A DNA stretch of 27,790 bases from a virus. The stretch spans positions 1 through 27,790 of the IMG/VR virus record IMGVR_UViG_3300031974_001918, one strand, 5' to 3'. The notes beneath the pieces were generated by a model, which worked only from the letters and a program-made list of their open reading frames with translations, was not told where the DNA came from and did no database searches. Positions 3,551 to 23,236 of the stretch are shown here, in pieces (the stretch's first letter is position 1; the number at the start of each line of letters is the position of its first letter). The position numbers and the translations under genes were made by a program.

Positions 3551-3567
3551 TTCTAGCTAGTTTTTGT

Positions 3568-3575
3568 TATAAATA
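3568..3575 (+). promoter_or_regulatory. T4-type late promoter
   Basis: An exact TATAAATA (continuing TA) sits in the 45-base gap before the ATG at 3596, with a GAGAGGGAG Shine-Dalgarno in between. It would start a late transcript for the small virion protein and the first fiber gene. Confidence 0.8.
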
Positions 3576-3595
3576 TAGTAAAGAGAGGGAGATTA

Positions 3596-3844
3596 ATGCC
3601 TGATATAACAGCTAAAATTAATGTAAATACAAGTGCCGGTCCACAAAAAGTAGCAGTAACCTTACCCTCAGCTCAGGCAGCCGGGAACAGCACTTTACAA
3701 TTAAAATTATTAGGTGACGTTGATACAACTGAATTAGATGATGGCGCATTATTACAATACAGAGCTTCAGACGGTAAATTTGTAACCAGAACGGAGATAG
3801 TAACCACAACCGGAACGCTCTTATTCAATTGTGGTAACTTTTAG
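3596..3844 (+). CDS. Small putative virion structural protein
   Basis: 82 residues. The C-terminal part has the block LGDVDTTELDDGALLQYRAS followed by DGKFV, a motif common in fiber-associated proteins of marine T4-like phages, and ends LLFNCGNF. The N-terminus (ITAKINVNTSAGPQKVAVTLPS) looks like beta strands. No enzyme motif, signal peptide or membrane helix. It lies between a late promoter and a fiber gene that starts 9 bases after its stop, so a structural role is inferred from the motif and location. Confidence 0.72.
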   Translation: MPDITAKINVNTSAGPQKVAVTLPSAQAAGNSTLQLKLLGDVDTTELDDGALLQYRASDGKFVTRTEIVTTTGTLLFNCGNF

Positions 3845-3853
3845 GGATAAAAT

Positions 3854-5572: not shown

Positions 5573-5790
5573 TGTTTTCAATTATTAAAAAATGGTTTGA
5601 TGGTGTTGTAAAATCTTATGACGCAAAACCAGAGAAAAAAAGTGCAGTAATAAGAATAGGTGATTTACAATATAAAACTAAAAAAGAATTAGAAAATATC
5701 GGTAGAAAAATCGGTATAGAATTAGATAGAAGACTTACAAAACAAAAACTAATTAACAAAATTAAATTTAAAGTAAAGAATAAAAGATAA
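5572..5790 (+). CDS. Small basic protein with Rho-N/SAP-like helix-turn segment
   Basis: 72 residues, starting with GTG that shares one base with the preceding stop (TAGTG), with GGAGGG upstream as the ribosome site. The C-terminal half, IGDLQYKTKKELENIGRKIG then ELDRRLTKQKLINKIK, has the spacing of the small helical Rho N-terminal or SAP-type motif. The protein is strongly basic. Small proteins with this motif are found among structural genes of marine T4-like phages, with unproven roles (nucleic-acid or protein binding). It ends TAATG, overlapping the next start by one base, so translation is probably coupled. Confidence 0.72.
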   Translation: MFSIIKKWFDGVVKSYDAKPEKKSAVIRIGDLQYKTKKELENIGRKIGIELDRRLTKQKLINKIKFKVKNKR

Positions 5791-7065: not shown

Positions 7066-10000
7066 ATGGCAGATTTTATACTAGGTAGATTAAAGTTTCA
7101 CTTCAAAGGTGCTTGGACTACTTCAACAGCTTACATCAAAGATGATGTGATTACTTACGGAGGAAATTCATTCGTTTGTCTAGTAAACCACACAGCAAAT
7201 TCAGATTTCTATACAGATTTAAACCACGCAACAGCCAAATGGGAACAAATGGTTGGAGGTCTTGATTACAAAGGTAATTGGGCGGCTACAACACTTTACA
7301 AAGTTGATGACATTGTAACCTTTGGTGGTTCAACATACAGATGTATTACTGGACATACATCACAAGCAGATTTATATGACGATACTTCAAAATGGCAAGT
7401 ATTTGCCGGAGGTTTCGGTTGGAGAGGTGTTTGGGCAACAGCTACAGCATACAGAAATGATGACGTTGTAAAATACGGTGCAAGTTTATATGTTTGTACT
7501 ACACAACATACTTCTTCAGGTGCAACACTAGACGAATCTAAATTTAATTTATTCGTATCAGGTTTAGAATTTGAGGATAGTTGGGCAAGTTCAACACTTT
7601 ATCAATTAGGTGATATTGTAACCTACGGTGGTTATCAATATGTTGCTGAAAGAGCAAACAACAACGTTTTACCTTATAACAACTCTTCAGATTGGAAATT
7701 ATTATCAACAGGATTTAATAACACAGGTACTTGGTCAAATTCTACAGCATACAAAACTGGTGATACCGTTAACCACGGTGGTCATTATTATGTGGCTAAG
7801 ATTGACGGAACAGGAAATGAACCATCAGGTGCAACTAACTCATATTGGGATTTAGTTGTTGAAGGTATTTTCTGGAGAAGCAATTGGACAAGTGGCACAG
7901 CTTACAAAATTGGTGACGCAGTATCTCACGGCTCTTCTTCTTATAGAGCAATTACAAATCATACAGCGTCAGCGTCAAACAGACCAGATGTATCAGGTCA
8001 AACAGATTGGAACCTATTAGCTGAAGGTGATTCAAACGCAACACTAACTACAAGAGGCGATATTCTTACAAGAGACGCAACTCAACGAGTTAGATTGCCA
8101 ATTGGTTCAGCAGGTAGTTTCTTAAAATCAGATGGTACTGATTTAACTTGGTCTTATCCAAGTGTCGGTAACAAAGTTTATTATGTATCAACACTAGGTA
8201 CAGATAATACAGATACAGGCAGAGGTACAACTCCAGAATTACCTTGGAGAACAATCAAATATGCTTGTACTCAATTAGCTTCAGACACAACAAATTTTAA
8301 AACGGTTAAAATAGAAACAGGAACATATACAGAGCAATTGCCTATTAAAGTTCCGAGAAAAACTGCTCTTATCGGTGATAACTTACGAAGTGTTACCGTT
8401 TCTCCAGACACTACAACAAACAATGGTGCTGGTGCAGGTATTTCAAGTGATAACTCTACACCAAATAATAGACAAACAATGTTTTATCTAAATGACTCTT
8501 GTACTTTATCAGGTATGACATTTAGTGGTATGACAGGTCAATTAGCAAGTTCAGCTAGCTCAGATGGTCTAACAAGATTAACTGAAGGCACAGGTTCAAA
8601 TGCTTCAGGTTCAGTTTGTGCATTGGATCCAGGTACTGGTCCAACAGATACGTCTGTTCACATTATTTCTAGGTCACCATTCGTACAAAACTGCTCATCA
8701 ATTGGTTCAAGAGCAGTAGGTATTAAAATTGATGGTACTTTACACAACGGCGGTTTCAAATCAATTCTTGCAAATGACTTTACGCAAGTTCTTGATGGTG
8801 GTATCGGTGTTTGGGCAAAAGGTGGTGCAAAATCAGAATTAGTATCAGTATTTACTTATTACTGCCACGTAGGTTATCTATGTGATAGTGGTGCAGTTAT
8901 TCGTTCACTAAACTCTAACAACTCGTATGGTGAAAAAGGTTCAGTTGCTTCAGGTGTTGACGCAAACGAAACTCCTTTAACAGCAACGGTAACTAATAGA
9001 GACAATGAAGCAATCATTGGTAGAGCATTAGTATCAAACGCTGGTGTTTACAGATTAGAACAAGAATACGCAGGTGAAACTTATACATCTGCTACAGAAA
9101 CAATTTCAGGTTCAGGCGCAAATGCTAACTTTACTGCCGACTTTGCTGACGGTGCAGTAAAATATATTGATGTAGCAACTAACGGTGCAGGTCACTTTAC
9201 TACCGTTGGTGTTGCTCAAGGCGGAACAACAACATCAATTAGATTAGCTGCCTCTGATACTCAAGCAAACAACTTCTATAATGGTATGAGACTTACAATT
9301 ACAGATGGTACAGGCTCAGGTCAAACTGGTTACGTTGGAACATACACAGCGGCAACTAAAACTGCTACAATGTTTAAAGAAGACGGTAATCCAGGTTTTG
9401 ACGTATTTGGTCCAACAAGTGTTGCAGTTGCTCCTAACGCAACAGCAAGTTATGAAATTGAGCCAAGAGTTACCATTTCAGGTGGTGGTTCTCCAACAAG
9501 AAACGCATTAGCAAGAGTTGTAATTGAAAACCAAATTATTAAAAAATTCTTAATACTTGACGGTGGTGCAGGTTATTCATCAGCTCCTTCAATTACGGTA
9601 ACTGACCCTAACGCAACAACTTTAGGAACAGGTACTGCTACAATTGGAGATGGCGTAATTTCAAGATGGACTTATGCAGCTGCCGGTTCAGGTTACAAAC
9701 AAGAAAACACAACAGCAACCGTAAGTGGTGATGGTTATGCTGAAATATTACCTGTTGGTGCAACGGTAAAAACTTCAGGTTTATCAAGTCAACCAAAAGC
9801 AGGTTCAAGTATAGTATTTTCAAATGCTTCAAGTGTAAGTTATATTATTGTAACCGTATTATCACACGCAAACGGTGGTATAACAAGTTTAGAAGTATCG
9901 CCAAATATTTCAAAAGCAAATGCTCCAACACACGGAACAAATGCTACGGTTAGAGAAAAATATTCTAACATAAGATTAACAGGTCACGACTTCCTAGATA

Positions 10001-10782
10001 TTGGTACAGGTGGTATTTCAACTACAAATTATCCAGACTTAAATGGTTATACACAACAACCAGACCAAGGTGATGAAGTTGATGATTTAGATAGAGGTAG
10101 AGTATTCTATACTTCAACCGACCAAGATGGTAACTTTAGAGTTGGTGAATTGTTTAGAGTAGAACAATCAACAGGTAAGGCAACTTTGAACGCAGAAGCC
10201 TTTGACCTTTCTGGTTTGAGACAATTATCTCTAGGTTCAGTTGCATTAGGAAATTTTGGTGCAACAATTAATGAATTTTCAACTGACGGTACTATGGGTG
10301 ATAATTCTGATAGTGCTCTCGTTACCGAGAAAGCAATTAGAACATTTGTAGAAAATCAATTAGGTGGTGGTAATAACAACTTAACGGTTAACTCTGCTGT
10401 AATCGGTGAAATAACAATCGCAGGTTCAAACATTTCAGCTTCAACTGGAAACACGGTTAACTTTACAACTATACCAACAACTAGTATAACTCCGACAGCG
10501 AGTACACATATTGTTAACAAAGGTTATGTTGATGAAAATGTGACACCTAATTTACAGACTTTATCTTTTGATAGAGATACAGGTCAGTTAAACAGAAAAG
10601 TAATTACTAACTTTAATACAATAACTCAATACGAAGATACTTTATTTAATGGCGCTGAACAAAACGTTGGTTTTGAAGTTATAAATGGTAGTATGAGAAT
10701 TGAAATTGACAAAGCAGGTAATTTAGTTTATAGAACAACAGGAGATACAGAGGATGCCTCTGAAACTCCAAGTAACCAATAA
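7066..10782 (+). CDS. Large tail fiber with six CBM5/12-like repeats and a beta-helix domain
   Basis: 1238 residues. Residues about 14-322 hold six tandem 45-55 residue repeats with the chitin/carbohydrate-binding type 5/12 signature (W...TaY..gDdV.yggs.Y.c...ht...W). A linker with GDILTRDATQRVRLPIGSAG follows. From residue about 371 (VYYVSTLGTDNTDTGRGT, PWRTIKYAC) to about 630 the sequence looks like a right-handed beta-helix (pectin-lyase-like) domain, as found in depolymerases and adhesins. Near residue 1016 is the motif DQDGNFRVGELFRVEQSTG, recalled from marine T4-like fibers, and near the C-terminus NKGYVDENV. It probably binds, and possibly degrades, host surface glycans; no catalytic residues can be assigned. 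The ribosome site AGGGAAG precedes the ATG. Confidence 0.82.
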   Translation: MADFILGRLKFHFKGAWTTSTAYIKDDVITYGGNSFVCLVNHTANSDFYTDLNHATAKWEQMVGGLDYKGNWAATTLYKVDDIVTFGGSTYRCITGHTSQADLYDDTSKWQVFAGGFGWRGVWATATAYRNDDVVKYGASLYVCTTQHTSSGATLDESKFNLFVSGLEFEDSWASSTLYQLGDIVTYGGYQYVAERANNNVLPYNNSSDWKLLSTGFNNTGTWSNSTAYKTGDTVNHGGHYYVAKIDGTGNEPSGATNSYWDLVVEGIFWRSNWTSGTAYKIGDAVSHGSSSYRAITNHTASASNRPDVSGQTDWNLLAEGDSNATLTTRGDILTRDATQRVRLPIGSAGSFLKSDGTDLTWSYPSVGNKVYYVSTLGTDNTDTGRGTTPELPWRTIKYACTQLASDTTNFKTVKIETGTYTEQLPIKVPRKTALIGDNLRSVTVSPDTTTNNGAGAGISSDNSTPNNRQTMFYLNDSCTLSGMTFSGMTGQLASSASSDGLTRLTEGTGSNASGSVCALDPGTGPTDTSVHIISRSPFVQNCSSIGSRAVGIKIDGTLHNGGFKSILANDFTQVLDGGIGVWAKGGAKSELVSVFTYYCHVGYLCDSGAVIRSLNSNNSYGEKGSVASGVDANETPLTATVTNRDNEAIIGRALVSNAGVYRLEQEYAGETYTSATETISGSGANANFTADFADGAVKYIDVATNGAGHFTTVGVAQGGTTTSIRLAASDTQANNFYNGMRLTITDGTGSGQTGYVGTYTAATKTATMFKEDGNPGFDVFGPTSVAVAPNATASYEIEPRVTISGGGSPTRNALARVVIENQIIKKFLILDGGAGYSSAPSITVTDPNATTLGTGTATIGDGVISRWTYAAAGSGYKQENTTATVSGDGYAEILPVGATVKTSGLSSQPKAGSSIVFSNASSVSYIIVTVLSHANGGITSLEVSPNISKANAPTHGTNATVREKYSNIRLTGHDFLDIGTGGISTTNYPDLNGYTQQPDQGDEVDDLDRGRVFYTSTDQDGNFRVGELFRVEQSTGKATLNAEAFDLSGLRQLSLGSVALGNFGATINEFSTDGTMGDNSDSALVTEKAIRTFVENQLGGGNNNLTVNSAVIGEITIAGSNISASTGNTVNFTTIPTTSITPTASTHIVNKGYVDENVTPNLQTLSFDRDTGQLNRKVITNFNTITQYEDTLFNGAEQNVGFEVINGSMRIEIDKAGNLVYRTTGDTEDASETPSNQ
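7105..8030 (+). repeat. Six tandem CBM5/12-like protein repeats
   Basis: The unit is about 150 bases. Repeat openings read GAWTTSTAYIKDD, GNWAATTLYKVDD, GVWATATAYRNDD, DSWASSTLYQLGD, GTWSNSTAYKTGD and SNWTSGTAYKIGD. The aromatic Trp and Tyr positions are kept in all six; the Cys in the Y-x-C position is kept only in the first three. DNA identity between copies is low, so the duplications are old. Confidence 0.82.
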
Positions 10783-10805: not shown

Positions 10806-13800
10806 ATGGCAATCACTAGAACAAAAATTGGAAATTTATGGTTTAATTATCGTGGCGAATACGATAGTTCAGCTACATATAAAAAAGACGATATTGTTAT
10901 CTGGAACAATACTGACTATTTAAATATTAGAGAGTCTAGTGTTAGTGGTAAACAACCAGAACAAAATACACAATATTATTACAACATACAAACAACAACT
11001 GACCCAAGCGACTCAACTACTAAATTCCAGATTGACGCAGATGAGACTTCAACTATTGAATGGGCACAAACTTTGTATGTTAGAAGAGGTGATAAAATTA
11101 TATTTCACCAAAATAATAATAATAATGATGACCAACCTTTGGCTATTGCTACATCAGCTACAAGTCAAACTTCAAACTATTTAACAACAGGTGTAACCTA
11201 TTATCATAACGAGGAAACGGTAACGCAAGCAGATTACGTAACCACTTCTAAATTTAATACTAAAACAAGTAGAAAAGTTGTAGTAGAATTTGATAAAGAT
11301 ACGCCTTCAGAAATTTGGTACTTTTCAGCAGGTACAGGTGGCGCAAACTATGGTGGTAAAATTGTAGTTGCAGATTGGGACACTTGGAGACCTTTAAGAA
11401 ACTCATTTAGTTGGAAAGGTTTACACGTAAATACAAACGGAACACAATATTACGAAAATGATGTTGTTCACGTTAGACACGGTATCAGTAATGATATGGG
11501 TACTGACCAAGAACCACAATCAAAGAAAGAAACACTATCTGCTTATATTTGTTTAAGAGCTCATACAACAGATGGTACAGAAAGATTTTTACCTTACAAC
11601 AGAAATATTGACACTAATGCAAATATGTATTGGATTAAAGCTGGTGCAGAATATGAATCAGATGATGAAAGATATGAAGATAACGGCGTAATTGCAAGTG
11701 TAAATAGTATTTCAGCTGCTGACGCTTCAAGATTAAGAGGTGTATATAGAAGTGTGACACCTAAATCTACATCAAACTCAGCTGCTAATGCACATCCAGG
11801 TGCTTTCAAAATTACCGTTCAAGGTGACGGAGATATTTTAGCAGTAGATAATTTTTCAGCTGCTGACGCTTCAAGAACAGCAGGTACTTACTCGGCTGTT
11901 GCTCAATCAGCAACAACAGGTGTAGGAACAGGTGCAAGTTTTAATATCACGGTAGACGGCACAGGTGCTGTAACCAAAGTTGAACAAGTTGCAGTAAGAA
12001 ATAAAAAAGTAGGCGCTACAGGTTATGTAGATAACGAAACAATTACAATTGCAGATGGTTCATTAGGTGGCGGTGGTGCTGCTGACTTTACAATGCAAGT
12101 AAATGGTGCCGGTGTTGCAGGTACAGCTACAATAGAAGTTGAAAGAGTTGAAACTTTTGATTCTAAAAGAAATCAAAGATGGTTTAATGATACAGGTATG
12201 TTATCAGGTGGTGAAAACAATGTTGTTGGCGACACACTAACTTTTGATGGAGATATTTTTGGTGGTGGTGCAGACTTAACTTGTCAAGTTGCTACAACTA
12301 TTAAACAAACTAGAGGTGCTACAAACATTTACACAGGTAATCCTCACGATTGTGTATCGTTAATTAATAACGGACCATTAGGTGATGATAACAAATATTA
12401 CAGACTATCAGGTCAAAGAACATCAAGACATTGTGTAAACTGGCCAGTATTCCACGGTGGTACAGGTAATGCTTGGACTTGGGGTTCAAACTCAAATGGT
12501 CAAAATGCATTTAACCACGACTTTATGACTGCTACTCAAATGTCATTTAACCACTATGATTGGTGGAGAAGTACAGATAACGGTGGTACAGGTGTTCACA
12601 CAACACCAGACGGAGAAGTTCCTAAAATAATTCAAATTGAAGGTGGTTACCAATCAGGTATGTGCTTGATGAATTCTGGTGAAGTTTATCATTGGGGTTA
12701 TGGTGGTCACGGACAAAACGGTGACGCTTCAACATCAAACAGAGACCACCCCGTAAGAGTTGGTGGTTCAAATCAAAACGTATTCCAAGCTACAAACACA
12801 TCAACACACGTTTGGAGAGATACAAGAATTAAAAGAATTTTCTTGTCTAACTGGCAAGGTTACAACACTAATACTCACTCTTGTTATGCAATTGATGAAG
12901 ATGGCCAATTATGGTCTTGGGGTTATAACGGTTATGGTCAATTAGGTACAGCCAATACAACTAACTATAACGTACCACAATTAATTTCAAAATCAACTTA
13001 CTTTAACAATAGTGAGATTGAGGCATTTTGGACAATTGGTGACTCTTATGCTTCAGCATATGCATATACTAAAGAGAAAAAATTATATGTTTGGGGAAGA
13101 AATGCAGATGGCCAATTAGGTATCGGTAATACAACTGACCAAAACACTCCTCAAGAGGTTACAACGGTAACTTTTGATGGCACAGGCGTTGGTGAAATTA
13201 AAAAATTCCAAGGTCTAAACCATTCAGATGACAATACGGTTGCAATCTTGACTGAAAGAGGAACAATTTATACAACAGGTTACAATAGCCAAGGTCATAT
13301 GGGTAATGGTAACACAACAGCATTAAACACTTGGACAATTTGTTCAAATGGTTGTGGTAATGCTTCAAATGCAGATTGTAATAATTTCTGGATGGGTGGT
13401 AATGGTGCTCACGCACAAATGTGGATAGAAGACTCATTAGGTAATATTCAATGTGCTGGTTACAATAACCACGGTTCATTAGGAAATGGTAATAATACTA
13501 CACAAAATAGTTTTGTCACACCTAAAGTTTACGTTGGCTCAAATACAACAAGAGATTTCCACAATGTAAAAATGGTTTCATTCTTCCCTCACGGAAATGA
13601 CTTAGCAACAAAAATTTTAACTTGGGACGGACACGTTTTCCAAACTGGTGATAATAGATATGGTCAATCTTCAAATGGTTGGTCATCAACTACCTCAACA
13701 AATGATAGAAACGCAGAGAACAACAAAGAACACTTCCAAGGTTACTACTTTAACCAAGTAAGATTTCCTACTTCTTTAACAGGTAATGTTGAAGATATGA

Positions 13801-13961
13801 GAGGTTGTGGTTACGGCGATAACTCTGACACGGTTTACGCTTTTTGGGAATATAAATCATTTGATAATAGATATTATCTAAACGGATATGGCGGAAGTTA
13901 TATGCAAGGTAATGCTGATGGTCAATATTATTGTACAGCTCACGTACCAATTTTAGGATAA
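10806..13961 (+). CDS. Large adhesin/fiber protein ending in an RCC1-like beta-propeller (first of three)
   Basis: 1051 residues. The N-terminus (YRGEYDSSATYKKDDIVIWN) is a single CBM5/12-like unit. Residues about 50-195 (YVRRGDKIIFHQ, QPLAIAT, IWYFSAGTGG) look like a cupredoxin-type beta-sandwich without metal ligands. Residues about 298-440 carry two copies of an SAADASR(L/T)xGxY module and Gly/Thr-rich strands. From about 546 to the end there are seven RCC1-type blades with W-G-x-N-x-x-G-Q-L-G cores (AWTWGSNSNGQ, VYHWGYGGHGQNG, LWSWGYNGYGQLG, LYVWGRNADGQLG, IYTTGYNSQGHMG, IQCAGYNNHGSLG, VFQTGDNRYGQ). A seven-bladed propeller is expected, probably as a receptor-binding head. Two downstream genes have the same layout. 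The virion role is inferred. Confidence 0.8.
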   Translation: MAITRTKIGNLWFNYRGEYDSSATYKKDDIVIWNNTDYLNIRESSVSGKQPEQNTQYYYNIQTTTDPSDSTTKFQIDADETSTIEWAQTLYVRRGDKIIFHQNNNNNDDQPLAIATSATSQTSNYLTTGVTYYHNEETVTQADYVTTSKFNTKTSRKVVVEFDKDTPSEIWYFSAGTGGANYGGKIVVADWDTWRPLRNSFSWKGLHVNTNGTQYYENDVVHVRHGISNDMGTDQEPQSKKETLSAYICLRAHTTDGTERFLPYNRNIDTNANMYWIKAGAEYESDDERYEDNGVIASVNSISAADASRLRGVYRSVTPKSTSNSAANAHPGAFKITVQGDGDILAVDNFSAADASRTAGTYSAVAQSATTGVGTGASFNITVDGTGAVTKVEQVAVRNKKVGATGYVDNETITIADGSLGGGGAADFTMQVNGAGVAGTATIEVERVETFDSKRNQRWFNDTGMLSGGENNVVGDTLTFDGDIFGGGADLTCQVATTIKQTRGATNIYTGNPHDCVSLINNGPLGDDNKYYRLSGQRTSRHCVNWPVFHGGTGNAWTWGSNSNGQNAFNHDFMTATQMSFNHYDWWRSTDNGGTGVHTTPDGEVPKIIQIEGGYQSGMCLMNSGEVYHWGYGGHGQNGDASTSNRDHPVRVGGSNQNVFQATNTSTHVWRDTRIKRIFLSNWQGYNTNTHSCYAIDEDGQLWSWGYNGYGQLGTANTTNYNVPQLISKSTYFNNSEIEAFWTIGDSYASAYAYTKEKKLYVWGRNADGQLGIGNTTDQNTPQEVTTVTFDGTGVGEIKKFQGLNHSDDNTVAILTERGTIYTTGYNSQGHMGNGNTTALNTWTICSNGCGNASNADCNNFWMGGNGAHAQMWIEDSLGNIQCAGYNNHGSLGNGNNTTQNSFVTPKVYVGSNTTRDFHNVKMVSFFPHGNDLATKILTWDGHVFQTGDNRYGQSSNGWSSTTSTNDRNAENNKEHFQGYYFNQVRFPTSLTGNVEDMRGCGYGDNSDTVYAFWEYKSFDNRYYLNGYGGSYMQGNADGQYYCTAHVPILG
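11710..11876 (+). repeat. Direct repeat within the first RCC1-type fiber gene
   Basis: An identical 23-base stretch (opening TTTCAGCTGCTGACG) occurs at 11710-11732 and 11854-11876, 144 bases apart. It encodes the repeated protein module beginning SAADASR. Because 144 is a multiple of three, the reading frame is kept, so this is an internal domain duplication and could be a site of in-frame recombination. Confidence 0.8.
12442..13700 (+). repeat. Seven RCC1-like propeller repeats, first copy
   Basis: The repeats encode a conserved G-x-(V/L)-(W/Y)-x-W/T-G-x-N-x-x-G-Q-L-G core at intervals of about 50-65 residues. Before the second blade lies a DWWRSTDN segment and TPDGEVPKIIQIEGG, which recur in recognisable form in the two other propeller genes. 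Confidence 0.8.
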
Positions 13962-13983: not shown

Positions 13984-16900
13984 ATGGCAAAAATAAATTT
14001 AGGACGAGTAAAATTTAGTTTCCAAGGAGATTGGAATAACAATACTAACTATCGTAAAGATGACGTTTGTTGGTTTGACAACTCTCTATGGATTTGTACT
14101 AATCCGTACTTATCAAATGGTTATGACAACTATGCTCCAGGTGATAAAAACACAGGTTATTTTTGGACAAGAACATACTCTAACGACCCGAATTTTAGAA
14201 GAGGTTATCACGTATTAGATGATGACTTCCAAAGAAGTAATGAAACAGGTAATCCTATTATCAATACTTCAAGATATGGTTCAGATGAAAACACGCAAGA
14301 GTCAACTAGAAATGGTCAAAGATTTGGCCAAGCAAACTGGTTTTCAAATAATTCTGCTAATGGTGGTTACTTACTAGACTATCAAGCTCATTTACTAAAT
14401 GACCAAGAAGATTATGCTATGGGAGACAAAGGTAATTTCTTCGGTTATGGTGAGTTAAATACAAACAAAATTTCAATTTTTCAAAATTATGTACCAGTAG
14501 AAAACCAATTTAGAGTAGATGTTCAAACATCTCCTTCAAACAGATTTAAATTTGATAACAGATTACCTAGCACAGATTTAGGTAGAGAAAACTTTGGTGG
14601 TAATGGTGGTGGTTTTAGACACTTTACACACTTCAAAGAAGGATACAAATACAGATTTGACCAAAGAGACGAATCAAATAAAACTTTCCCATTAGGCTTT
14701 TCAACAACTGCTGATGGTATTCATAACTCAACACCAGGTACATCATTAGCCGCTGATGAAGACGGACCATATTTTGTAATTGGTGAAACTACAACAGGTG
14801 ATTCAGGTGTTTTCTATCCTTTATATCTATCAGCTGCAGGTGCAAATGCTGAAGATACTAGAATGGGTGGCGCAGGTTCAAGTGCTACAATTAATTTTTC
14901 TCAAATACAAAGAGGTCCTAATAACGAAACGGTAAGTAATGAAAGTTCTACAAACTTTTATTTACCTGATATGATTGACCCAACTGCTGTTGATGAAAGA
15001 ATTTTAGAGGTTGCTGTAGTTTCAGGTAACCCTACTAATCACCCTTACTATAACACAGGTTCAACAAACAAATATTCAATTAATGGTTCAACTGCTACAG
15101 GTGATGTTGCATTAAATTTAAGTGAAGGTAAAACTTACAGATTTGACCAATCAGACGCCTCAAATACAGGACACCCATTAAGATTTTCTACAACTGCTAA
15201 CGGAACACACGCTTCAGGTTCAGAATACACAACTGGCGTAACCGTTGTAGGTACACCTGGTAAAAAAGGTGCATACACAGAAATTAAAATTAGAAAAGGT
15301 ATTGATAAACTTTACTACTATTGCACACAACACTCTGGAATGGGTTGGTCAGCAGACACAATAACTCCTAATTCAAGAGCAAGAGCATATGCTCCTTCAA
15401 ACATTCCTATGTACAGAGGTGCTAACAAAAATGGTATTGTAAGATACTTCTTAAACAATAAACAGGTTACAGAAGCTCAATACAAAACAACTTTTACAGA
15501 TACTATATCAAATGATGGTTCATCTTACACAGGTGATATGCCAGCATACACAACTGAAAATGGTTTAACAAGAGGTGGTCAACAATACTCTTGGAAGAAA
15601 AATCAAGACAGACACGTAGAAATTTATATACCAATCGGCTTCTTTAAAATGAGAAGTCAACAGATTTATCCTTTCTGTTTAGCAGCTTCAAAAAATGATA
15701 TGTACCAAGATTTAGGTTGGAACGTTGAAGAAACTTGGAGAGGTTACAAACATTGGGACAGGATGCAAACAGGTATCAGATTTAGAGGTGAGTACGACCC
15801 TCATACTCATTACAAATACAATGATGTTGTAATTTATAGAAAAAGAAAAAGAAGAGCAGACGGTACAAAGGCTGAATTTCAACCTATGTCGCCAACTGGT
15901 ATGTATAGATGTATAAGAGATTCAAAAGGTAGACCTCCTCATTATGGTCCTCAAAATATGACTACTTCTCCTTTGATGACAAAATCTACAACAACAAGTG
16001 GTAAACTAATTAAAGAAACATATCAAGAATATCCTGCTCACATACGTTCATACTGGAACGATTGGGAAGACTTTGGACAACAAACAAATACTAATAATGA
16101 ACAACACGCTTGGTATCCTAACAAAGGTCCAATTGCTTGGCCTTATAAACACTCTACACAGACGGTTTTACACACAGATAGCCAGTACAGACATATTGAC
16201 AAAAATGGTGTTGCTTGGGGTATTAACTATCCTAGAACAGGTTTCCAAACATACGGTTCTTATTATTCTTCATACTATCACGAAATTAATTTTAGATGGA
16301 GAGACTGGTGGAGAAGTGAAGACTTAAACTACACAGGCTACAATGAAAATAGAGGTAGAAATAGAAGTACGGTAAGAAAACCATTACACACTCCTAGATG
16401 TATTCAAATTGCAGACGGTCGTGATAGATGTTATTGGTTAATGGATAACGGAGAATTATATGTAAATGGTGAATCATCAAACGGTGAAATGGGTATCGGT
16501 ACTGAGCAAGGCGATAGAAATGGTACTTTTAGAGTTCACGGTTTAGAAGATGTAAAAATTATTAAAGTAGCTATGGATCCTTGGGGCGATAATACAAATC
16601 ATACTTTAGCACTTGACGATAAAGGTACGGTATGGTCTTGGGGTTATAACGACCAAGGTCAATTAGGTGATGGTAGAACACAAAACAAAACAGCACCTTA
16701 CAGAATACCTAACAAATATTTTGACAACGAAAAAATTATTGATATTGCTACAACAAATAGAAGTTCATACGTTAGAACAGCTAGCGACCACATTTACGCT
16801 TTCGGTAATAACGGTATCGGCCAATTAGGTGATACAACTACAACTGACAAATACAGACCTACAAAAATGCAAGGTTGGGATCCTGTTGCTAACAACGGTA

Positions 16901-17613
16901 TCGCAGTATGGCAAATTCAAGGTAACGGTGATGATGGTTGGGTAACCTTACTAGATGGTAATGGCTACTTATGGAATTGTGGTGAAAATAACTATGGTAA
17001 CTTTGGCGATGGTACAACAAATAACAACACGCAGTTAACAAAAACTGAAGTTGCACCAGGTGGTGACATTGTTGATATTTGGGTTATGTACTGGAACGGT
17101 TACAAAACAATGTATATGAGAACAAAAGATGGTACTTGTTATCACGTAGGTTCTTCACAATCTTATTACATAGGTGGTACTGGTACTAATGGTTCATATA
17201 GTACACCTCAAACTATGCAGAAAGTAACCAATATTAAAGAAGCTTATGTTTCAGGTAACTATTCAGACCAAGGTAAAGCATTTTGGATAACTGATAGTGG
17301 TGAAAGTTATTGTTATGGTTATGACTCAAGAAATTCTATGTTGCAACCACAGGCGGGTACAAACTGGACTGGTGAAGACGGTAATTACTATCCTTTCCAT
17401 TGGGTGACACCTGCTGGTGCTAGAGTAATAACTATGCATATTACAACAGATGACCAAGGTTCTTCTGAATATGCTGGTGGTTACAGATACACAGATGAAC
17501 ACGGAAAAATTTATCATTGGGGAAGAAATAACTGGTTGACAGGACACAACTGGTGGACACACGGTTGGACTTCAACAAATGGTCAGGCTTATAATCAAGG
17601 CCACGGAAGATAA
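13984..17613 (+). CDS. Large adhesin/fiber protein with cupredoxin-like domain and RCC1-like propeller (second of three)
   Basis: 1209 residues. The N-terminus FQGDWNNNTNYRKDDVCWFD is a CBM5/12-like unit. Residues about 217-285 are a degenerate cupredoxin-like copy (YRFDQRDESNKTFPLGFSTT) lacking the metal His. Residues about 380-455 are a better copy: His397 in GHPLRFSTT and Cys447-x2-His450-x2-Met453 in YYYCTQHSGMG, close to the plastocyanin copper-site order. A second CBM5/12-like unit lies at about 598-655 (FRGEYDPHTHYKYNDVVIY). From about 814 to the end are seven RCC1-type blades (LYVNGESSNGEMG, VWSWGYNDQGQLG, IYAFGNNGIGQLG, LWNCGENNYGNFG, CYHVGSSQSYYIG, SYCYGYDSRN, IYHWGRNNW). It is probably a receptor-binding virion protein. 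Metal binding is unproven. Confidence 0.8.
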   Translation: MAKINLGRVKFSFQGDWNNNTNYRKDDVCWFDNSLWICTNPYLSNGYDNYAPGDKNTGYFWTRTYSNDPNFRRGYHVLDDDFQRSNETGNPIINTSRYGSDENTQESTRNGQRFGQANWFSNNSANGGYLLDYQAHLLNDQEDYAMGDKGNFFGYGELNTNKISIFQNYVPVENQFRVDVQTSPSNRFKFDNRLPSTDLGRENFGGNGGGFRHFTHFKEGYKYRFDQRDESNKTFPLGFSTTADGIHNSTPGTSLAADEDGPYFVIGETTTGDSGVFYPLYLSAAGANAEDTRMGGAGSSATINFSQIQRGPNNETVSNESSTNFYLPDMIDPTAVDERILEVAVVSGNPTNHPYYNTGSTNKYSINGSTATGDVALNLSEGKTYRFDQSDASNTGHPLRFSTTANGTHASGSEYTTGVTVVGTPGKKGAYTEIKIRKGIDKLYYYCTQHSGMGWSADTITPNSRARAYAPSNIPMYRGANKNGIVRYFLNNKQVTEAQYKTTFTDTISNDGSSYTGDMPAYTTENGLTRGGQQYSWKKNQDRHVEIYIPIGFFKMRSQQIYPFCLAASKNDMYQDLGWNVEETWRGYKHWDRMQTGIRFRGEYDPHTHYKYNDVVIYRKRKRRADGTKAEFQPMSPTGMYRCIRDSKGRPPHYGPQNMTTSPLMTKSTTTSGKLIKETYQEYPAHIRSYWNDWEDFGQQTNTNNEQHAWYPNKGPIAWPYKHSTQTVLHTDSQYRHIDKNGVAWGINYPRTGFQTYGSYYSSYYHEINFRWRDWWRSEDLNYTGYNENRGRNRSTVRKPLHTPRCIQIADGRDRCYWLMDNGELYVNGESSNGEMGIGTEQGDRNGTFRVHGLEDVKIIKVAMDPWGDNTNHTLALDDKGTVWSWGYNDQGQLGDGRTQNKTAPYRIPNKYFDNEKIIDIATTNRSSYVRTASDHIYAFGNNGIGQLGDTTTTDKYRPTKMQGWDPVANNGIAVWQIQGNGDDGWVTLLDGNGYLWNCGENNYGNFGDGTTNNNTQLTKTEVAPGGDIVDIWVMYWNGYKTMYMRTKDGTCYHVGSSQSYYIGGTGTNGSYSTPQTMQKVTNIKEAYVSGNYSDQGKAFWITDSGESYCYGYDSRNSMLQPQAGTNWTGEDGNYYPFHWVTPAGARVITMHITTDDQGSSEYAGGYRYTDEHGKIYHWGRNNWLTGHNWWTHGWTSTNGQAYNQGHGR
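15121..15351 (+). other. Encoded cupredoxin-like domain with Cys-x2-His-x2-Met
   Basis: The encoded domain has a beta-strand pattern with GKTYRFDQSDASNTGHPLRF at its start and YYYCTQHSGMGW at its end. In type-1 copper proteins the ligands are an early His and a C-terminal Cys...His...Met loop. Here His397, Cys447, His450 and Met453 fall in the same order, with a shorter His-Met spacing than plastocyanin. Confidence 0.6.
16423..17580 (+). repeat. Seven RCC1-like propeller repeats, second copy
   Basis: Blade cores are G-x-(V/L/I)-(W/Y)-x-x-G-x-N-x-x-G-x-(L/F)-G, best preserved in VWSWGYNDQGQLGDG. Upstream, DWWRSED and PRCIQIADG match the equivalent segments of the first and third propeller genes, supporting common ancestry. 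Confidence 0.78.
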
Positions 17614-17622
17614 AAATTATAT

Positions 17623-17630
17623 TATAAATA
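17623..17630 (+). promoter_or_regulatory. T4-type late promoter
   Basis: An exact TATAAATA sits in the 41-base gap between fiber genes, followed by AAAGGAG and the ATG at 17655. It gives the 139-residue protein and the third propeller fiber their own late transcript. Confidence 0.8.
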
Positions 17631-18095: not shown

Positions 18096-20336
18096 ATGGC
18101 TTTTGAATTAGAACAATTTAAACTAACTTGGCAAGGTCCTTGGAGAGATAGAACAGCTTACTCCAAAAATGATATTGTCGCTTGGAAATGTAAATCTTAT
18201 AGATGTATAAGAGATTGCCCTATTGCATATACATTATCAGGTGATTGGATGGTTAACACAGCTAACTATTCAATGGATCCTCAAAGATTAGTTCAAAAGT
18301 CTTTTAGACCAGACAACGCAAAATACTGGCAATTATTCTTACGTTCAACAGATGACGTTGGTGAGTGGGAATTTTACAGACAATATGAGCCAGGAGAAAT
18401 GTGTTCAGTTGGTAGAAAAATTTACCAATGTATAAAAAGAACAAGACGTTATAACACTTGGGTTGTTGAACACGATGGAACAACAAGTGAATATTGGGTG
18501 AAAATTTACGAATCACCTTACAAACATCCAGATAGAAATAAAATTGTATCTTTCACTAATAGAGCTCCTTTAGGGTGGAAGTACAATATGGGTAGAAATT
18601 CAAGAGAACAACAACACAACTATACACTTGGTTGTATTCATTCAGACGGTGATTTTTATGGTCACGGCGGTAATAACAACAATGGTCAATTTGGTATGGG
18701 TGATGGTCAATCAGGTAATGCAAGACGTGGTTCTCCTAAAAACGTAGGTTTTACCTTTGTTGATTGGATGACTTCAACTGATAATAAAGACCTAGTAAAA
18801 GGTCACGAATACACAGGAAATATGGTGACACCAGATGGTGAAGCACCTAAATGTATTCAACACGTATCATCAAGCAATACATCTTGGTGGTTGTTTAATA
18901 ACGGAGAAGTTTATTCTGCTGGTTATAACTCACACTATCAATTAGGTTATAACGAAGGTGGTAATACAAATACTACCGATAGAAATTACACAAACAGAGT
19001 ATCAGCTAGTGATACCGTTGACTGGTTAGGTGAAACAATACGTTCATTTAACGAAACTAAAATTGTAAAAATTGGTTCTTCAGGTCAAGGTCAAAACAAC
19101 TCTGCTTGTATGCAGTTTGCATTAGGCGAAGACGGTTCAGTATGGATGTGGGGTCATAACAACCAAGCTCAGTTTGGTGGTGGTAACCCTAGTATCAATA
19201 ACTCAACTGATACAAACGCAGGTTCGCCTTACTCATTTTCTTTCTATTCAGTTAACGTAAAAAGACCTATTAAAATTCCTCAAGAATTTTTTAATGGTAA
19301 AAGAATTGTTGATATGTGGGCAAACGGTAATGAAGAAATGTTTTTCCACGCTCTTGACGAAGACGGATACTTATGGTTCTGGGGACAAAACATTCACGGC
19401 TGTGGTGGTACAGGTGAAGGCTCACACACTTCTCAAGGTGTAAAATATTATTACATTCCAAGAAGAGTAGAAGTAAACTGGAATTTATACGGTGGTATGA
19501 AACTATTACAACATTGGTCATACTCTTCACAATCACACGCAGGTACTTGGGTACTTGATGGTGAGGGTTATATGTGGTACACAGGTTACTTAACAAACGG
19601 TCAAGTTCCTGGTATGTACGGTTTAGGTGATAACTCAACTAGATATATTTCACAATTTCAAAGAACAGACTTCCATTTAAACGGCGACATTGATGAATTT
19701 TGGTGTGGTGGTGACGAACACAAATGGATGTATATGAGACAAAAATCAACTGGTATGTTATGGGTAAATGATGGTAATTACGGAACATACGGCGGTAGAG
19801 GTACACGTTCACAAAACGGATACTGGTACAATTCAGGTGGTATTCACGGAATGATGTCTCATTTAAGAGGACCAAAATACGTAAGATACGTTGCAGGTAT
19901 GAACGAAAACAGAGGTGATGGTTCTTATATTTACGAATTCCCTCTAATACTTGATGAATCAGGTGAAGTATGGTACGGTGGTTATGCTCAAGGTTTCTAT
20001 CCTTCAGGTACTAATGCGGATCCGTCAAATGATTCAGATGGTTGGGAACATATGCCAGAGCAAGCGTTTGAAGGTAACTCTGAAAACAGACATAGAAAAA
20101 GAAGAGGTACCGTTCCTAATAATATGAAACTTGTTGACTTACATTGCTACGGTTATCCAACTGCTCAAAACTTTGCAGCTAGAGATTCACACGGTAAATT
20201 GTTAACTTGTGGTTACGCAGGTAATAACCAAACGTATCTATATGACATTATGCCTTACAGATACTATACTCAAACGATTTCATCTTGGGGTAGTAATAAC
20301 TACCGAACCCATTGGGCTTCATCTCCAGGTGATTAA
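18096..20336 (+). CDS. Adhesin/fiber protein with RCC1-like propeller (third of three)
   Basis: 746 residues, the shortest of the propeller set. It has two N-terminal CBM5/12-like units, WQGPWRDRTAYSKNDIVAWK (about residues 10-60) and GEWEFYRQYEPGEMCSVGRK (about 89-140). RCC1-type blades follow from about residue 182: FYGHGGNNNNGQFG, VYSAGYNSHYQLG, VWMWGHNNQAQFG, LWFWGQNIHGCGG, MWYTGYLTNGQ, LWVNDGNYGTYGG, VWYGGYAQGF and LLTCGYAGNNQ, so seven or eight blades. The segment DWMTSTDN and TPDGEAPKCIQH match the first two propeller proteins, showing they are paralogues. It lacks the long middle modules of the others. A receptor-binding or decoration role is inferred. Confidence 0.8.
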   Translation: MAFELEQFKLTWQGPWRDRTAYSKNDIVAWKCKSYRCIRDCPIAYTLSGDWMVNTANYSMDPQRLVQKSFRPDNAKYWQLFLRSTDDVGEWEFYRQYEPGEMCSVGRKIYQCIKRTRRYNTWVVEHDGTTSEYWVKIYESPYKHPDRNKIVSFTNRAPLGWKYNMGRNSREQQHNYTLGCIHSDGDFYGHGGNNNNGQFGMGDGQSGNARRGSPKNVGFTFVDWMTSTDNKDLVKGHEYTGNMVTPDGEAPKCIQHVSSSNTSWWLFNNGEVYSAGYNSHYQLGYNEGGNTNTTDRNYTNRVSASDTVDWLGETIRSFNETKIVKIGSSGQGQNNSACMQFALGEDGSVWMWGHNNQAQFGGGNPSINNSTDTNAGSPYSFSFYSVNVKRPIKIPQEFFNGKRIVDMWANGNEEMFFHALDEDGYLWFWGQNIHGCGGTGEGSHTSQGVKYYYIPRRVEVNWNLYGGMKLLQHWSYSSQSHAGTWVLDGEGYMWYTGYLTNGQVPGMYGLGDNSTRYISQFQRTDFHLNGDIDEFWCGGDEHKWMYMRQKSTGMLWVNDGNYGTYGGRGTRSQNGYWYNSGGIHGMMSHLRGPKYVRYVAGMNENRGDGSYIYEFPLILDESGEVWYGGYAQGFYPSGTNADPSNDSDGWEHMPEQAFEGNSENRHRKRRGTVPNNMKLVDLHCYGYPTAQNFAARDSHGKLLTCGYAGNNQTYLYDIMPYRYYTQTISSWGSNNYRTHWASSPGD
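18640..20260 (+). repeat. RCC1-like propeller repeats, third copy
   Basis: Seven or eight blades with G-x-(V/L)-W-x-x-G cores spaced about 50-80 residues apart. They are more divergent than the first copy, with longer loops, especially around the MWYTG and LWVND blades. Confidence 0.72.
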
Positions 20337-20378: not shown

Positions 20379-21143
20379 ATGTATAAAACGAAACAAAACT
20401 ATTTAAGATTCAAAACACACGAAATCTTTTCAGATAAGTTTAAACAATATCCTAAAGAGCAACAAGCTGCTTACTGGTATCAAATTTGGTTTCTCATTAA
20501 TAGTGTAGAATTATTAATGAAAGATTGGGACTTTGATACTCACGAAGTCGCAAAAGATTTTACTCATAAATGGCTAGAATTATGGCCGTTTCCCTTAAAC
20601 AATACAATCGGTGGAGCACCTGCTCATCAAAAAGTACCAACTTTAGTTGAAGGCACAGATTATCTTTGTGAAAAATATAATCTAATCGGTACTTGGACAA
20701 CTGATTATAAAACACCAATTAATAGATTTTCTGTTCAAGTTGTTTATGGTGTATTAGTAGATTTATTTAAAGATATATTAAAAGTTGAACAAGAACAAGT
20801 AAACGCCTTTTTATTACCATTAAAAGATTATGATAAAAAAAGATTTACAATAACAAGACAAGATACTATCAAAGCAATTGTTGGTATGTCTGACTTCTTT
20901 ATCAATACAAAAGAAGTATGGGAAGAAACTAAAATGTTTGGTGATTGGAGAGAAATGGATGCCAAGAGACAAATTGAAGAAGTAAAACAAGGCTTTATTG
21001 ACCATAAAACACCTGAAGATTATCCTTTAGATAAAAGTAAAATTATTGACCATAGAAAAGGTGTTGAAGATAAACAATTTGTAAGAGAAAAGCCGTTTTT
21101 AGAAGAAAGTGATAGAGATTATGGACAACGAGAAGAAGTATAG
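20379..21143 (+). CDS. Hypothetical protein heading the bilin operon
   Basis: 254 residues, family not recognised. It has a GAAGGA ribosome site. The protein is soluble, rich in aromatic residues and largely helical (EQQAAYWYQIWFLINSVELL, FSVQVVYGVLVDLFKDIL), with a charged C-terminus (DRKGVEDKQF-type, then EESDRDYGQREEV). Notable segments are WPFPLNNTIGGAPAHQKVP and TITRQDTIKAIVGMSDFF. No signal peptide or clear membrane helix. The heme oxygenase gene starts inside its last 23 bases, so translation is probably coupled and a linked role is possible, but nothing in the sequence names it. No late promoter lies directly in front. Confidence 0.75.
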   Translation: MYKTKQNYLRFKTHEIFSDKFKQYPKEQQAAYWYQIWFLINSVELLMKDWDFDTHEVAKDFTHKWLELWPFPLNNTIGGAPAHQKVPTLVEGTDYLCEKYNLIGTWTTDYKTPINRFSVQVVYGVLVDLFKDILKVEQEQVNAFLLPLKDYDKKRFTITRQDTIKAIVGMSDFFINTKEVWEETKMFGDWREMDAKRQIEEVKQGFIDHKTPEDYPLDKSKIIDHRKGVEDKQFVREKPFLEESDRDYGQREEV

Positions 21144-21720
21144 AATAAAAGATTTAACTTGGGAATATCATAAAAACGCAGAGAGACAAGACTTTGTTAA
21201 ACTTTTATTATCAGGTACTATTGATGAAAAATTATATGCAACCTACTTATATAATCAATTAATTTGTTATGGAAAACTAGAAGAGTATTGTTTAGAAAGT
21301 TCTTTATTTCACGACACATTAAATCTACCAAGAGCGCCACATATTTTTTATGATTACAGAGCATTATGGGGAGATATAGGCAGTCCTCCTGTTCAAACTG
21401 AAAGTACAAAAGCTTACGTTGAACATTTAGAAACTATTAGAGGTGAGAATGAAAAATTATATGCTCACGTTTATGTAAGACATTTAGGTGATTTATCAGG
21501 TGGTCAAATGATAATGAGAAAAACGCCTGGACCTAATAGATACTATATATTTAAACACGGTGAGGCAAAAGAATATAAGAGAATTGTAAAAGAACGAGTT
21601 GAAAGTTATTTAAATTTATATGAGGTAAATGTGTTGCCAGAAGCAATATTTTGTTTTGAAAGTGCAACAAAACTATTTAAGGAAATGTATGATTTGGGAC
21701 AGACTAATAAAGTGGAGTAA
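21121..21720 (+). CDS. ho1: Heme oxygenase
   Basis: 199 residues from ATG 21121; an in-frame GTG at 21109 is possible but has no better ribosome site. The family signature is clear: AHVYVRHLGDLSGGQ at residues 115-129, the distal-helix Gly motif of heme oxygenases. Near the N-terminus TWEYHKNAERQDFVKLLLSG places a proximal heme-ligand His at residue 17, followed by YATYLYNQLICYGKLEE as in bacterial and cyanobacterial HO1. The enzyme opens heme with O2 and reductant (ferredoxin in phototroph and phage systems) to biliverdin IX-alpha, Fe(II) and CO. The length fits compact bacterial forms. It overlaps the upstream unknown gene by 23 bases and the downstream bilin reductase by 32 bases, so the two enzymes form a coupled pathway. 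Confidence 0.92.
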   Translation: MDNEKKYRIKDLTWEYHKNAERQDFVKLLLSGTIDEKLYATYLYNQLICYGKLEEYCLESSLFHDTLNLPRAPHIFYDYRALWGDIGSPPVQTESTKAYVEHLETIRGENEKLYAHVYVRHLGDLSGGQMIMRKTPGPNRYYIFKHGEAKEYKRIVKERVESYLNLYEVNVLPEAIFCFESATKLFKEMYDLGQTNKVE

Positions 21721-22393
21721 TGAGACTATTGAAGTCTTAAATAAAAATCTGGTTGAATATAAAGAACCAGGTATGGAAAGATTCAATAACGAAAAATTAG
21801 GCTGGGTAAATAGAACCTGGAATAATAGATATATTAGACGTGCTCATTTAGATGTGGTTGATGTTAGAGAATCAAAAGGTCTCTGGATGGCTCATCTATG
21901 TTTATTTCCTATGTTAACAAATGGTGGACCAATTTATGGTTTTGATGTTATTGCAGGTGAAAAAAAGGTAACAGGCGCTTTTCACGATTTTAGTCCTTTA
22001 CTACAAAAAGACCACCCATTAACAAAATGGTTTATAGAAGAAAACAAATCATTTAAACCGAGCAAAGAGAGAGAGTTACCAGATTGGGCAAAGGCTATCT
22101 TCTCGGGAGGTATGATAGCCGCTGGTAATATAAGAGAAGAAGAAGAATTAAATAAAATTTGTACAATGGCCGTTTCTAATTTAAATAATTATATTGACAA
22201 AATTAGAAATCACGAAGGCGAAGCTGATATGAAAGATGTAATTAAAGCACAAAATTACTACTCTGAACATCAACAAAAGAATCCACATACACCTAGAGTT
22301 ATGCAATCACTTGGTTTACCTGAAGAAGATATCAAATTATTCTGTTCGGACAACTTGTTTCCGTTTGTTTCAGAAAACCAACCCTACTTGTAA
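21689..22393 (+). CDS. pcyX: Ferredoxin-dependent bilin reductase, PcyX type
   Basis: 234 residues from ATG 21689, which has AAGGA at 21679-21683; upstream in-frame starts would extend it into the heme oxygenase gene without support. Family features: AHLCLFP, then GPIYGFDVIAG, VTGAFHDFSP, ELPDWAKAIFS, and QNYYSEHQQKNPHTPRVM near the C-terminus. By hand alignment to PcyA, His69 matches His88 and Asp86 matches Asp105 (same 17-residue spacing). Asp55 in AHLDVVD aligns with PcyA Glu76 if two residues are inserted. An Asp in that place with the His-Asp pair kept is the published PcyX pattern, which reduces biliverdin to phycoerythrobilin with four electrons from ferredoxin. PebS and PcyA are the alternatives. 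The subfamily call is less certain than the family. Confidence 0.85.
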   Translation: MIWDRLIKWSNETIEVLNKNLVEYKEPGMERFNNEKLGWVNRTWNNRYIRRAHLDVVDVRESKGLWMAHLCLFPMLTNGGPIYGFDVIAGEKKVTGAFHDFSPLLQKDHPLTKWFIEENKSFKPSKERELPDWAKAIFSGGMIAAGNIREEEELNKICTMAVSNLNNYIDKIRNHEGEADMKDVIKAQNYYSEHQQKNPHTPRVMQSLGLPEEDIKLFCSDNLFPFVSENQPYL

Positions 22394-22400
22394 TAACTAT

Positions 22401-22408
22401 TATAAATA
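22401..22408 (+). promoter_or_regulatory. T4-type late promoter before the neck genes
   Basis: An exact TATAAATA (continuing TA) lies in the 36-base gap between the bilin reductase stop and the gp13 ATG. It separates the pigment operon from the late morphogenesis run gp13-gp17. Confidence 0.82.
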
Positions 22409-22429: not shown

Positions 22430-23236
22430 ATGGCAGAACCAGCAACTAGAGAAAATTTAAAACAATATGCTTTAAGAGCATTAGGTAAGCCTGTAATTGA
22501 AATCAATGTTGATGACGACCAACTTGAAGATAGAATTGATGAGGCTATACAATACTTTGCTCAATACCATTATGATGGTGTTAAAAGAACATATTTAAAA
22601 TACCAATACACAGCAGCTGATAAAGCTAGAATGACAGCAGACGCTTCAGAAACGGCAACTATTGGTTCTGATACAACTACTTGGAAAGAAGGACAGAATT
22701 GGTTAGCTATACCATCTTCTATTCTTTCTGTAATTAATATATTTCCCTTTTCTTCTAAAGGTAGTCTAAACTTATTTGATGTAAGATACCAATTAAGATT
22801 AAATGACCTTTACGACTTCTCATCTACAAGTGTTGTTAACTATGATGTTGTATTAAGACATTTAGATTTTTTAGACCACATATTAGTTGGTGAAAAACCT
22901 ATGAGATTTAATCAACACGAAAATAAACTTTATATAGATATGGACTGGAAAAATGATTTAGCAGTTGATGAATATTTGGTAATTGAATGTTATAGAAAAT
23001 TAGACCCAGCAACTAATACGGATGTTTACAATGATATTTTTTTAAAAAGATATGTAACCGCTTTATTTAAAAGACAATGGGGTGCTAACTTATCAAAATT
23101 TGGTGGTGTTCAAATGATAGGTGGTGTAACCTTAAATGGTCAAGAAATATTTTCACAAGCATTAGCAGATATTGATAAACTAGAACAAGATATAAGAAGC
23201 TCATATGAATTAAATCCAGCAATGATGATAGGGTAA
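22430..23236 (+). CDS. 13: Neck protein gp13
   Basis: 268 residues. The N-terminus MAEPATRENLKQYALRALG followed by PVIEINVDDDQLEDRIDEAI and QYFAQYHYDG is the strongly conserved start of T4-like gp13. The remainder is mixed (WLAIPSSILSVINIFPFSS, FDVRYQLRLNDLYDFSS, YLVIECYRKLDP) and ends in a helical DIDKLEQDIRSSYELNPAMM. In T4, gp13 with gp14 closes the filled head and forms the neck to which tails join. The next genes are gp14, gp15, gp16 and gp17, the T4 order, which confirms the call. A late promoter sits 22 bases upstream of the ATG. Confidence 0.9.
   Translation: MAEPATRENLKQYALRALGKPVIEINVDDDQLEDRIDEAIQYFAQYHYDGVKRTYLKYQYTAADKARMTADASETATIGSDTTTWKEGQNWLAIPSSILSVINIFPFSSKGSLNLFDVRYQLRLNDLYDFSSTSVVNYDVVLRHLDFLDHILVGEKPMRFNQHENKLYIDMDWKNDLAVDEYLVIECYRKLDPATNTDVYNDIFLKRYVTALFKRQWGANLSKFGGVQMIGGVTLNGQEIFSQALADIDKLEQDIRSSYELNPAMMIG

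Follow-up and report, generated by a model that had tools for sequence, protein, structure and literature searches.

The hemO-pcyX cassette carried by the virus record IMGVR_UViG_3300031974_001918 raises the question of why a phage should encode enzymes that turn heme into a phycobilin if its host has no phycobilisomes to receive the pigment. The window, that is, the whole stretch of DNA analysed here, comprises 27,790 bases of this record, a 27.8-kb fragment, and coordinates without a prefix refer to it. The explanation of the cassette favoured by this study, with a probability of about 0.8, is that it would provide a heme-to-phycoerythrobilin pathway to a T4-like phage infecting SAR11 bacteria.

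Enzymes of the cassette and the phage that carries them

There is very little doubt about the identity of the two enzymes, which are a heme oxygenase (HO) and a ferredoxin-dependent bilin reductase (FDBR) of the PcyX type. The hemO gene (21121-21720, plus strand) encodes 199 amino acids from the ATG at 21121, or 203 from the GTG at 21109, and its open frame contains HVYVRHLGDLSGGQ. The product matches Pfam family PF01126 (Heme_oxygenase) at E=1.8e-17, with 64.3 bits against a cut-off of 23, and the 30 distinct PDB sequences matched at E<=0.001 are all heme oxygenases or HO fusions (best E=7.1e-13). His17, Gly123, Asp124, Gly127 and Gly128 are present, giving the proximal His and the GDLSGGQ distal helix of HO-1-type enzymes, presumably with their usual roles in HO. 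Among distinct aligned frames with a residue at the position, His17 is kept in 87 of 88, Gly123 in 93 of 94 and Gly127 in 94 of 95. The protein is predicted to turn heme into biliverdin IX-alpha, which would release carbon monoxide (CO) and iron.

The pcyX gene (21689-22393, plus strand; 234 amino acids) is assigned to the FDBR family by its match to Pfam PF05996 (Fe_bilin_red; E=4.8e-16, 59.5 bits against a cut-off of 31). Its product differs from PDB chain 5owg_A, named 'PcyX_EBK42635', at 13 of 235 aligned residues (E=1.1e-157, about 95% identity), and is nearer to PcyX than to PcyA, the best PcyA match being 2d1e_A at E=3.8e-14. The mechanically called open reading frame begins at 21629; translation probably starts at an internal ATG, 21689, which follows an AAGGA by a few nucleotides (nt), because M1 is aligned in 82 of 82 alignment rows and the PcyX-specific catalytic Asp then becomes residue 55, the number it bears in the literature (PMC11480375). 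His53, Asp55, His69 and Asp86 are invariant in these 82 rows, and among distinct relatives, counted where the position is occupied, they are kept in 92/92, 91/92, 92/92 and 92/93 cases, respectively. PcyX is reported to be a phycoerythrobilin synthase (PMC11480375, PMC6755814, PMC13197396), and phage PcyX has been grouped with alphaproteobacterial PcyA (PMC10151467); judged by its sequence, the 21689-22393 protein belongs to PcyX, and its predicted product is phycoerythrobilin. No bacterial relative of PcyX appeared among 120 pattern stretches from genome contigs, obtained with two stringent patterns only, a result that does not imply absence. An earlier note on this DNA, made from its letters alone, had seen an HO signature and, in an overlapping frame, a complete ferredoxin-dependent bilin reductase; the Pfam and PDB matches confirm both points.

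Downstream of the cassette lie gp13-, gp14-, gp15-, small-terminase- and large-terminase-type genes of a T4-like phage, the first being that of a gp13-type neck protein (22430-23236, plus strand; phrog_211 head-tail adaptor, E=2.4e-44), the usual downstream neighbour of the cassette. This gp13-gp14-gp15-terminase order, together with similarity to a SAR11 isolate, characterises the window as part of a probable pelagimyophage, a T4-like phage of SAR11. Pelagibacter phage Mosig EXVC030M (MT647606), whose host is Pelagibacter ubique HTCC1062, is the nearest isolate; Mosig alone among the 17 phage records that match PcyX exceeds 60% identity to the window PcyX, and its cassette occupies the same slot, with hemO and pcyX followed directly by gp13. 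Because the nearest isolate infects HTCC1062 and shares this synteny, the phage of the window very probably infects SAR11 (Pelagibacterales). In pelagimyophages the genes VrlC and gp14 enclose a host recognition cluster that is hypervariable, and heme biosynthesis genes are described in one deep-water group of them (PMC7029224); the cassette sits at the edge of the hypervariable region.

Pairing, constraint and expression of hemO and pcyX

A scan of IMG/VR gave 328 PcyX relatives; the 80 best were retained, which together with the window and Mosig make 82 loci. HO adjoins PcyX in every one of them, and the two frames overlap by 14-35 nt in 81, the exception being L063, in which a gene for a 2-oxoglutarate (2OG)-Fe(II) oxygenase stands between the two. 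The overlap in the window is 32 nt long (21689-21720, plus strand), in different frames and with the AAGGA just before the pcyX ATG, an arrangement that suggests coupled translation. The gp13 gene begins 31-37 nt past pcyX in 73 of the 82 loci, is undetected in 4 and is separated from pcyX by other genes in 5. A 353-amino-acid protein with a signal-peptide-like start is encoded between pcyX and gp13 in two loci (L069:8706-9767 and L072:1262-2323); it is perhaps an outer-membrane barrel, and the L069 protein has only a weak YfaZ match (E=0.02).

A second scan, from the PcyX of L063, added 20 further loci; each of the two sets consists of the relatives nearest to its query. Of these 20, 19 have both genes: the frames overlap by 1-29 nt in 16, and some 600 nt separate the genes in the other 3. 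The twentieth shows PcyX alone, beginning only 26 nt from the end of its contig. A third scan was based on gp13 and retained the best 80 loci, of which 73 were new and analysed: 15 carry both genes, 6 PcyX only, none HO only and 42 neither, and 10 have fewer than 800 bases upstream. HO without PcyX was thus found in 0 of the 63 informative gp13 loci among those kept. In each of the 6 PcyX-only loci the contig starts no more than 141 nt before the PcyX match, so that HO cannot be judged there, and all 7 exceptions to the pairing (1 derived from L063 and 6 from gp13) have PcyX at a contig end. Of the 15 gp13-derived pairs, 14 have frames that overlap, by 1-44 nt, and only L319 has a gap, of 5 nt. 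The cassette is an optional insert at a fixed site.

The median pairwise ratio of non-synonymous to synonymous substitution rates (dN/dS) is 0.118 for PcyX, 0.137 for gp13, 0.215 for HO and 0.498 for the type of gene found upstream of hemO in the window (20379-21143, discussed below), so that PcyX is about as constrained as gp13. The E-values given above, the presence of the pair in 82 of 82 loci and the medians for HO and PcyX exclude chance. In the L319 cassette (hemO 3387-3956, pcyX 3962-4645) both frames are open and still match their families; this is the sole sequence with HO His17Tyr, Gly123Arg and Gly127Glu, and also the sole one with PcyX Asp55Glu and Asp86Val. The simplest reading of this one contig is that the two activities form a unit that may have been lost or repurposed together.

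The motif TATAAATA, which we take to be a T4-type late promoter, occurs between pcyX and gp13 (22401-22408, plus strand), and the nearest upstream site on the same strand (17623-17630) stands before the ATG at 17655; late-promoter-like motifs thus lie on both sides of the window cassette and none inside it. All six plus-strand sites are 18-39 nt before an ATG, though ATGs are frequent. Counted over distinct upstream sequences, the last 44 nt before gp13 contain the motif in all 60 from loci with PcyX and in 34 of the 43 from loci that lack it; in the interval from -60 to +20 it is found at 0 of 75 PcyX genes, 0 of 17 genes of the 20379 type and 3 of 82 HO genes. Host sigma-70-type promoters around the cassette (17 sites against a shuffle mean of 21.8) and terminators (2 against 1.6) show no clear excess. 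The cassette is probably expressed late in infection, by read-through from the 17623 motif among the tail genes and together with them.

Purpose of the bilin and the gene upstream of hemO

In the proposed mechanism, HemO would open heme to biliverdin IX-alpha, CO and Fe(II), and PcyX, encoded in the overlapping frame, would reduce biliverdin by way of 15,16-dihydrobiliverdin to phycoerythrobilin with four electrons, most likely supplied by a host 2Fe-2S ferredoxin. Removal of biliverdin by PcyX may pull the HO reaction forward.

Receivers and electron donors were sought in up to 297 genomes, of unstated completeness, sampled from the family of the Pelagibacteraceae genome G035 (reached via L103), with named control genomes matched, and in 39 phage records (38 from IMG/VR and Mosig), mostly fragments, Mosig being given as 75.73% complete (PMC7892664). 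Among the sampled Pelagibacteraceae, HO, FDBR and the phytochrome family PHY were each found in 0 of 297 genomes and the phycobilisome family in 0 of 294, and FDBR was also absent from 12 Pelagibacterales genomes searched first; Fer2 ferredoxin is present in 143 of 147. None of the 39 phage records matched Phycobilisome, CpeT or PHY, GAF-only sensors and other globin families not being among those searched, and a Fer2 protein occurs in Mosig only, among 36 phage records. The sampled hosts are probably without known means to make or bind phycobilins, but would probably be able to supply the electrons. The earlier note had posed its question for the case that the host is not a cyanobacterium; with Mosig infecting HTCC1062 and no phycobilisome, phytochrome, HO or FDBR match in the sampled Pelagibacteraceae, this case very probably applies.

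The same survey bears on two uses of the product that would place it in light capture or light sensing. Phycoerythrobilin could serve phycobilisomes if the host were a cyanobacterium, the role that has been suggested for bilin genes of cyanophages; the cassette of marine phages was believed to ensure the light reactions of photosynthesis (PMC11480375), and PcyX and PebS have been linked to lineages infecting cyanobacteria (PMC13197396). Such a use is highly improbable here, given that the nearest isolate infects SAR11, that the phycobilisome family has no match in the sampled hosts and phage records, and that two cyanophage FDBRs share only 24-25% identity with PcyX and have Glu at position 55. 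A chromophore for a phytochrome-type sensor or a bilin-binding globin light sensor, of host or phage, would find parallels in Bradyrhizobium ORS278, where hemO, pcyA and alaS have an adjacent phytochrome gene (PMC11480375), and in the bilin-binding globins that occur with related reductases (PMC10151467). It is an improbable use nonetheless, against which stand the absence of PHY and Phycobilisome matches from the sampled hosts and phages and that of the CpeT lyase from the mostly fragmentary phage records.

The iron set free by HO suggests a different purpose, in which host-heme iron would be mined late for phage iron enzymes, such as 2OG-Fe(II) oxygenases, or for the virion, and PcyX would clear the biliverdin. 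An iron role is mentioned for the cassette (PMC11480375), and 2OG-Fe(II) oxygenases are, in individual cases, frequent neighbours: four are annotated near hemO in Mosig, the one between hemO and pcyX of L063 matches PF13759 at E=2.8e-11, and the window has TauD-type oxygenases at 125-688 and 1899-2630. HO alone would serve iron, yet it is never found without PcyX in the informative gp13 loci, and PcyX is the more constrained of the two, which makes iron mining unlikely. In L326 the cassette runs from an HO-like gene through hemO and pcyX to a 5-aminolevulinate synthase gene (L326:5589-6785; TIGR01821, E=6.6e-172) that overlaps the pcyX end by 1 nt if its start is the ATG at 5589. The bilin is favoured over iron in this locus because heme that is newly made and then broken would give no net iron. 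A scan for AlaS with the aminotransferase family gave partial matches over the cut-off in 2 of 30 phage records, G006 and Mosig.

Selection for the reduced bilin as such is the tentatively preferred view, with a chance clearly short of even, because PcyX is the constant companion of HO and more constrained, and because AlaS accompanies some cassettes. In its most likely use, host heme would be consumed to give a reduced bilin with a redox or photoprotective function, or one acting as the ligand of an unrecognised protein, and iron would be a by-product.

Several results weigh against the heme-to-phycoerythrobilin pathway in a SAR11 phage or against a bilin-first purpose for it. The Mantel correlation of pairwise distances is 0.779 between HO and PcyX and 0.848 between HO and gp13; since the former is no better than the latter, HO and PcyX follow the phage backbone, and joint inheritance of the two beyond the backbone is not shown by the distances. 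The count of TATAAATA in the window is not in excess (7 against 4.33 expected, with 15 of 100 shuffles reaching 7), so that the promoter case stands on the position of the motif. No bilin receiver was found in the sampled host or phage genomes, which leaves the bilin-first purpose without a positive partner. The host assignment stands on one isolate plus synteny, the window being a fragment in which a tRNA search found none, and the published attribution of PebS and PcyX to lineages infecting cyanobacteria points away from SAR11.

One candidate for the missing partner is the gene at 20379-21143 (plus strand; 254 amino acids), which overlaps the start of hemO; genes of its family make up 30 of the 74 distinct genes found upstream of hemO. 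The protein has no family match (in Pfam none at E<=1, Heme_oxygenase included), tblastn against the phage records gave none at E<=1, and direct profile comparison of its family with HO gave nothing (probability 0.2%). Its AlphaFold model (pLDDT 76, pTM 0.69) is nearly all helical; Foldseek returned no significant match (best E 0.73), and a structure search of viral predictions returned 0 matches at E<=0.001. A VIA comparison with 468 Foldseek-preselected chains listed 50 entries, all HO/TenA-like, at Z 8.7-11.2, values that helical models may reach by chance; THI20 and HO-1 lead the list, and the highest Z of 11.2 covers 162 residues with a root-mean-square deviation of 3.3. The names listed are taken to share one HO/TenA-like fold.

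In L326 the gene at the same place upstream of hemO is an HO relative at the sequence level, with a hidden Markov model score of 38.7 bits and a BLASTP match to the neighbouring HO at E=7e-9, and is not called HO by Pfam. When it is aligned with HO, an Arg takes the position of the proximal His and the GDLSGGQ is missing from its usual place; a short LNDMSGG stretch occurs further on. The profile link between the 20379 family and this gene is weak (probability 5.8%, E=0.0065); in a ranking of 601 sequences it comes first after 26 family members, with a score of 25.6 against 23.9 for the next.

The 20379-21143 protein may well share the heme-oxygenase fold, possibly without a heme ligand. The further step, that it is an HO paralog which lost the heme ligand, kept a tetrapyrrole-sized pocket and acts on tetrapyrroles, is a long shot; if true, the protein would be the missing receiver where the host has no known bilin protein, binding biliverdin or phycoerythrobilin, or would deliver heme to HemO, and the cassette would be a unit of three genes, not two. 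There is close to an even chance that it is instead a tail-fibre accessory or host-recognition protein whose function is unrelated to heme. Its gene comes after those of RCC1-type tail-region proteins, evolves fast by its median dN/dS, has a different counterpart upstream of hemO in Mosig, and lies in a slot adjoining the hypervariable host recognition cluster (PMC7029224); the match of the model to heme-oxygenase-like folds and the HO relative at the same place in L326 speak against this role.

Heme supply by a phage ferrochelatase, which would close a heme cycle and is suggested by the annotation of Mosig_00059, was considered and rejected, there being no Pfam match and a pattern and fold of the 2OG type. 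The family concerned, phrog_2954 (L082:11357-12127, corresponding to Mosig_00059), has invariant H116-x-D118-R119 and H167-x-R169 in an alignment of 15 IMG/VR relatives, and the model of the relative L253:3231-3869 matches prolyl-hydroxylase folds best (4j25, E=5.7e-9; 548 matches at E<=0.001). It is probably a family of 2OG-Fe(II) oxygenases, a reassignment that bears on ferrochelatase counts in pelagiphages (PMC11561400).

Elsewhere in the window, RCC1 repeats (PF00415, PF25390) occur in three large tail-region proteins (10806-13961, 13984-17613 and 18096-20336), with homologs in 28, 28 and 34 of 83 loci, respectively. The 7066-10782 protein contains four CBM_5_12 carbohydrate-binding stretches, and a part in host-surface recognition is plausible. 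At the left end a fatty acid desaturase (691-1395) accompanies the two TauD-type dioxygenases; these genes gave a tblastn match in the window only among the 83 loci, most of these being shorter and possibly ending before this region.

Relation to known cassettes

SAR11 bacteria belong to the most abundant lineages in the ocean. A complete heme-to-bilin route is present in some of their phages and in none of the SAR11 host genomes sampled. The lack of a known receiver in those genomes, the joint enzyme loss in one phage and the late-type layout make the purpose of the bilin testable with Mosig and HTCC1062, and the HO-like third gene of the window's clade is a concrete candidate for a bilin or heme partner. 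The marine-phage hemO-pcyX cassette was reportedly treated in Ledermann 2016.

The cassette, its likeness to Mosig, a gp13 tree and a three-gene cassette with alaS are described in PMC11480375, which calls the co-occurrence of the genes enigmatic. That paper already discusses the two genes together and leaves their purpose open, so that any claim of novelty for the pair is not supported; the window cassette adds one more member to a kind already described, and the core finding is known. No literature on phage heme oxygenase pseudoenzymes was found, and only PMC11480375 was found to join pcyX with SAR11, in searches outside whose scope many subscription papers and supplements fell. The double loss in L319, the host-receiver survey, the promoter layout and the HO-like neighbour were not met in the literature covered, in which no search was aimed at promoter layout.

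Compared with the published marine-phage cassette (PcyX_EBK42635, 5owg; Wegner 2024, PMC11480375), the window has the same two genes, Asp55 and a T4-like marine phage context, and the enzymes are essentially alike; the gene at 20379-21143 is not named in the available sections of that paper. In Mosig, as in the window, hemO overlaps pcyX before gp13, and identity over the aligned part reaches 83.6% for PcyX and 64.9% for HO. The Mosig cassette differs in its overlap of 14 nt and in having a 2OG-oxygenase gene upstream instead of one of the 20379 type. The reductases of cyanophages P-RSM4 and P-SSM4, annotated as pcyA, belong to the same FDBR family and differ from the window protein in their identity of about 25%, their Glu at position 55 and their other hosts, a comparison that included no PebS-labelled protein. 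The three-gene hemO-pcyA/X-alaS cassette (PMC11480375) is alike in its adjacent hemO and reductase genes; the window pair has no alaS beside it, whereas the related cassette of L326 does carry alaS.

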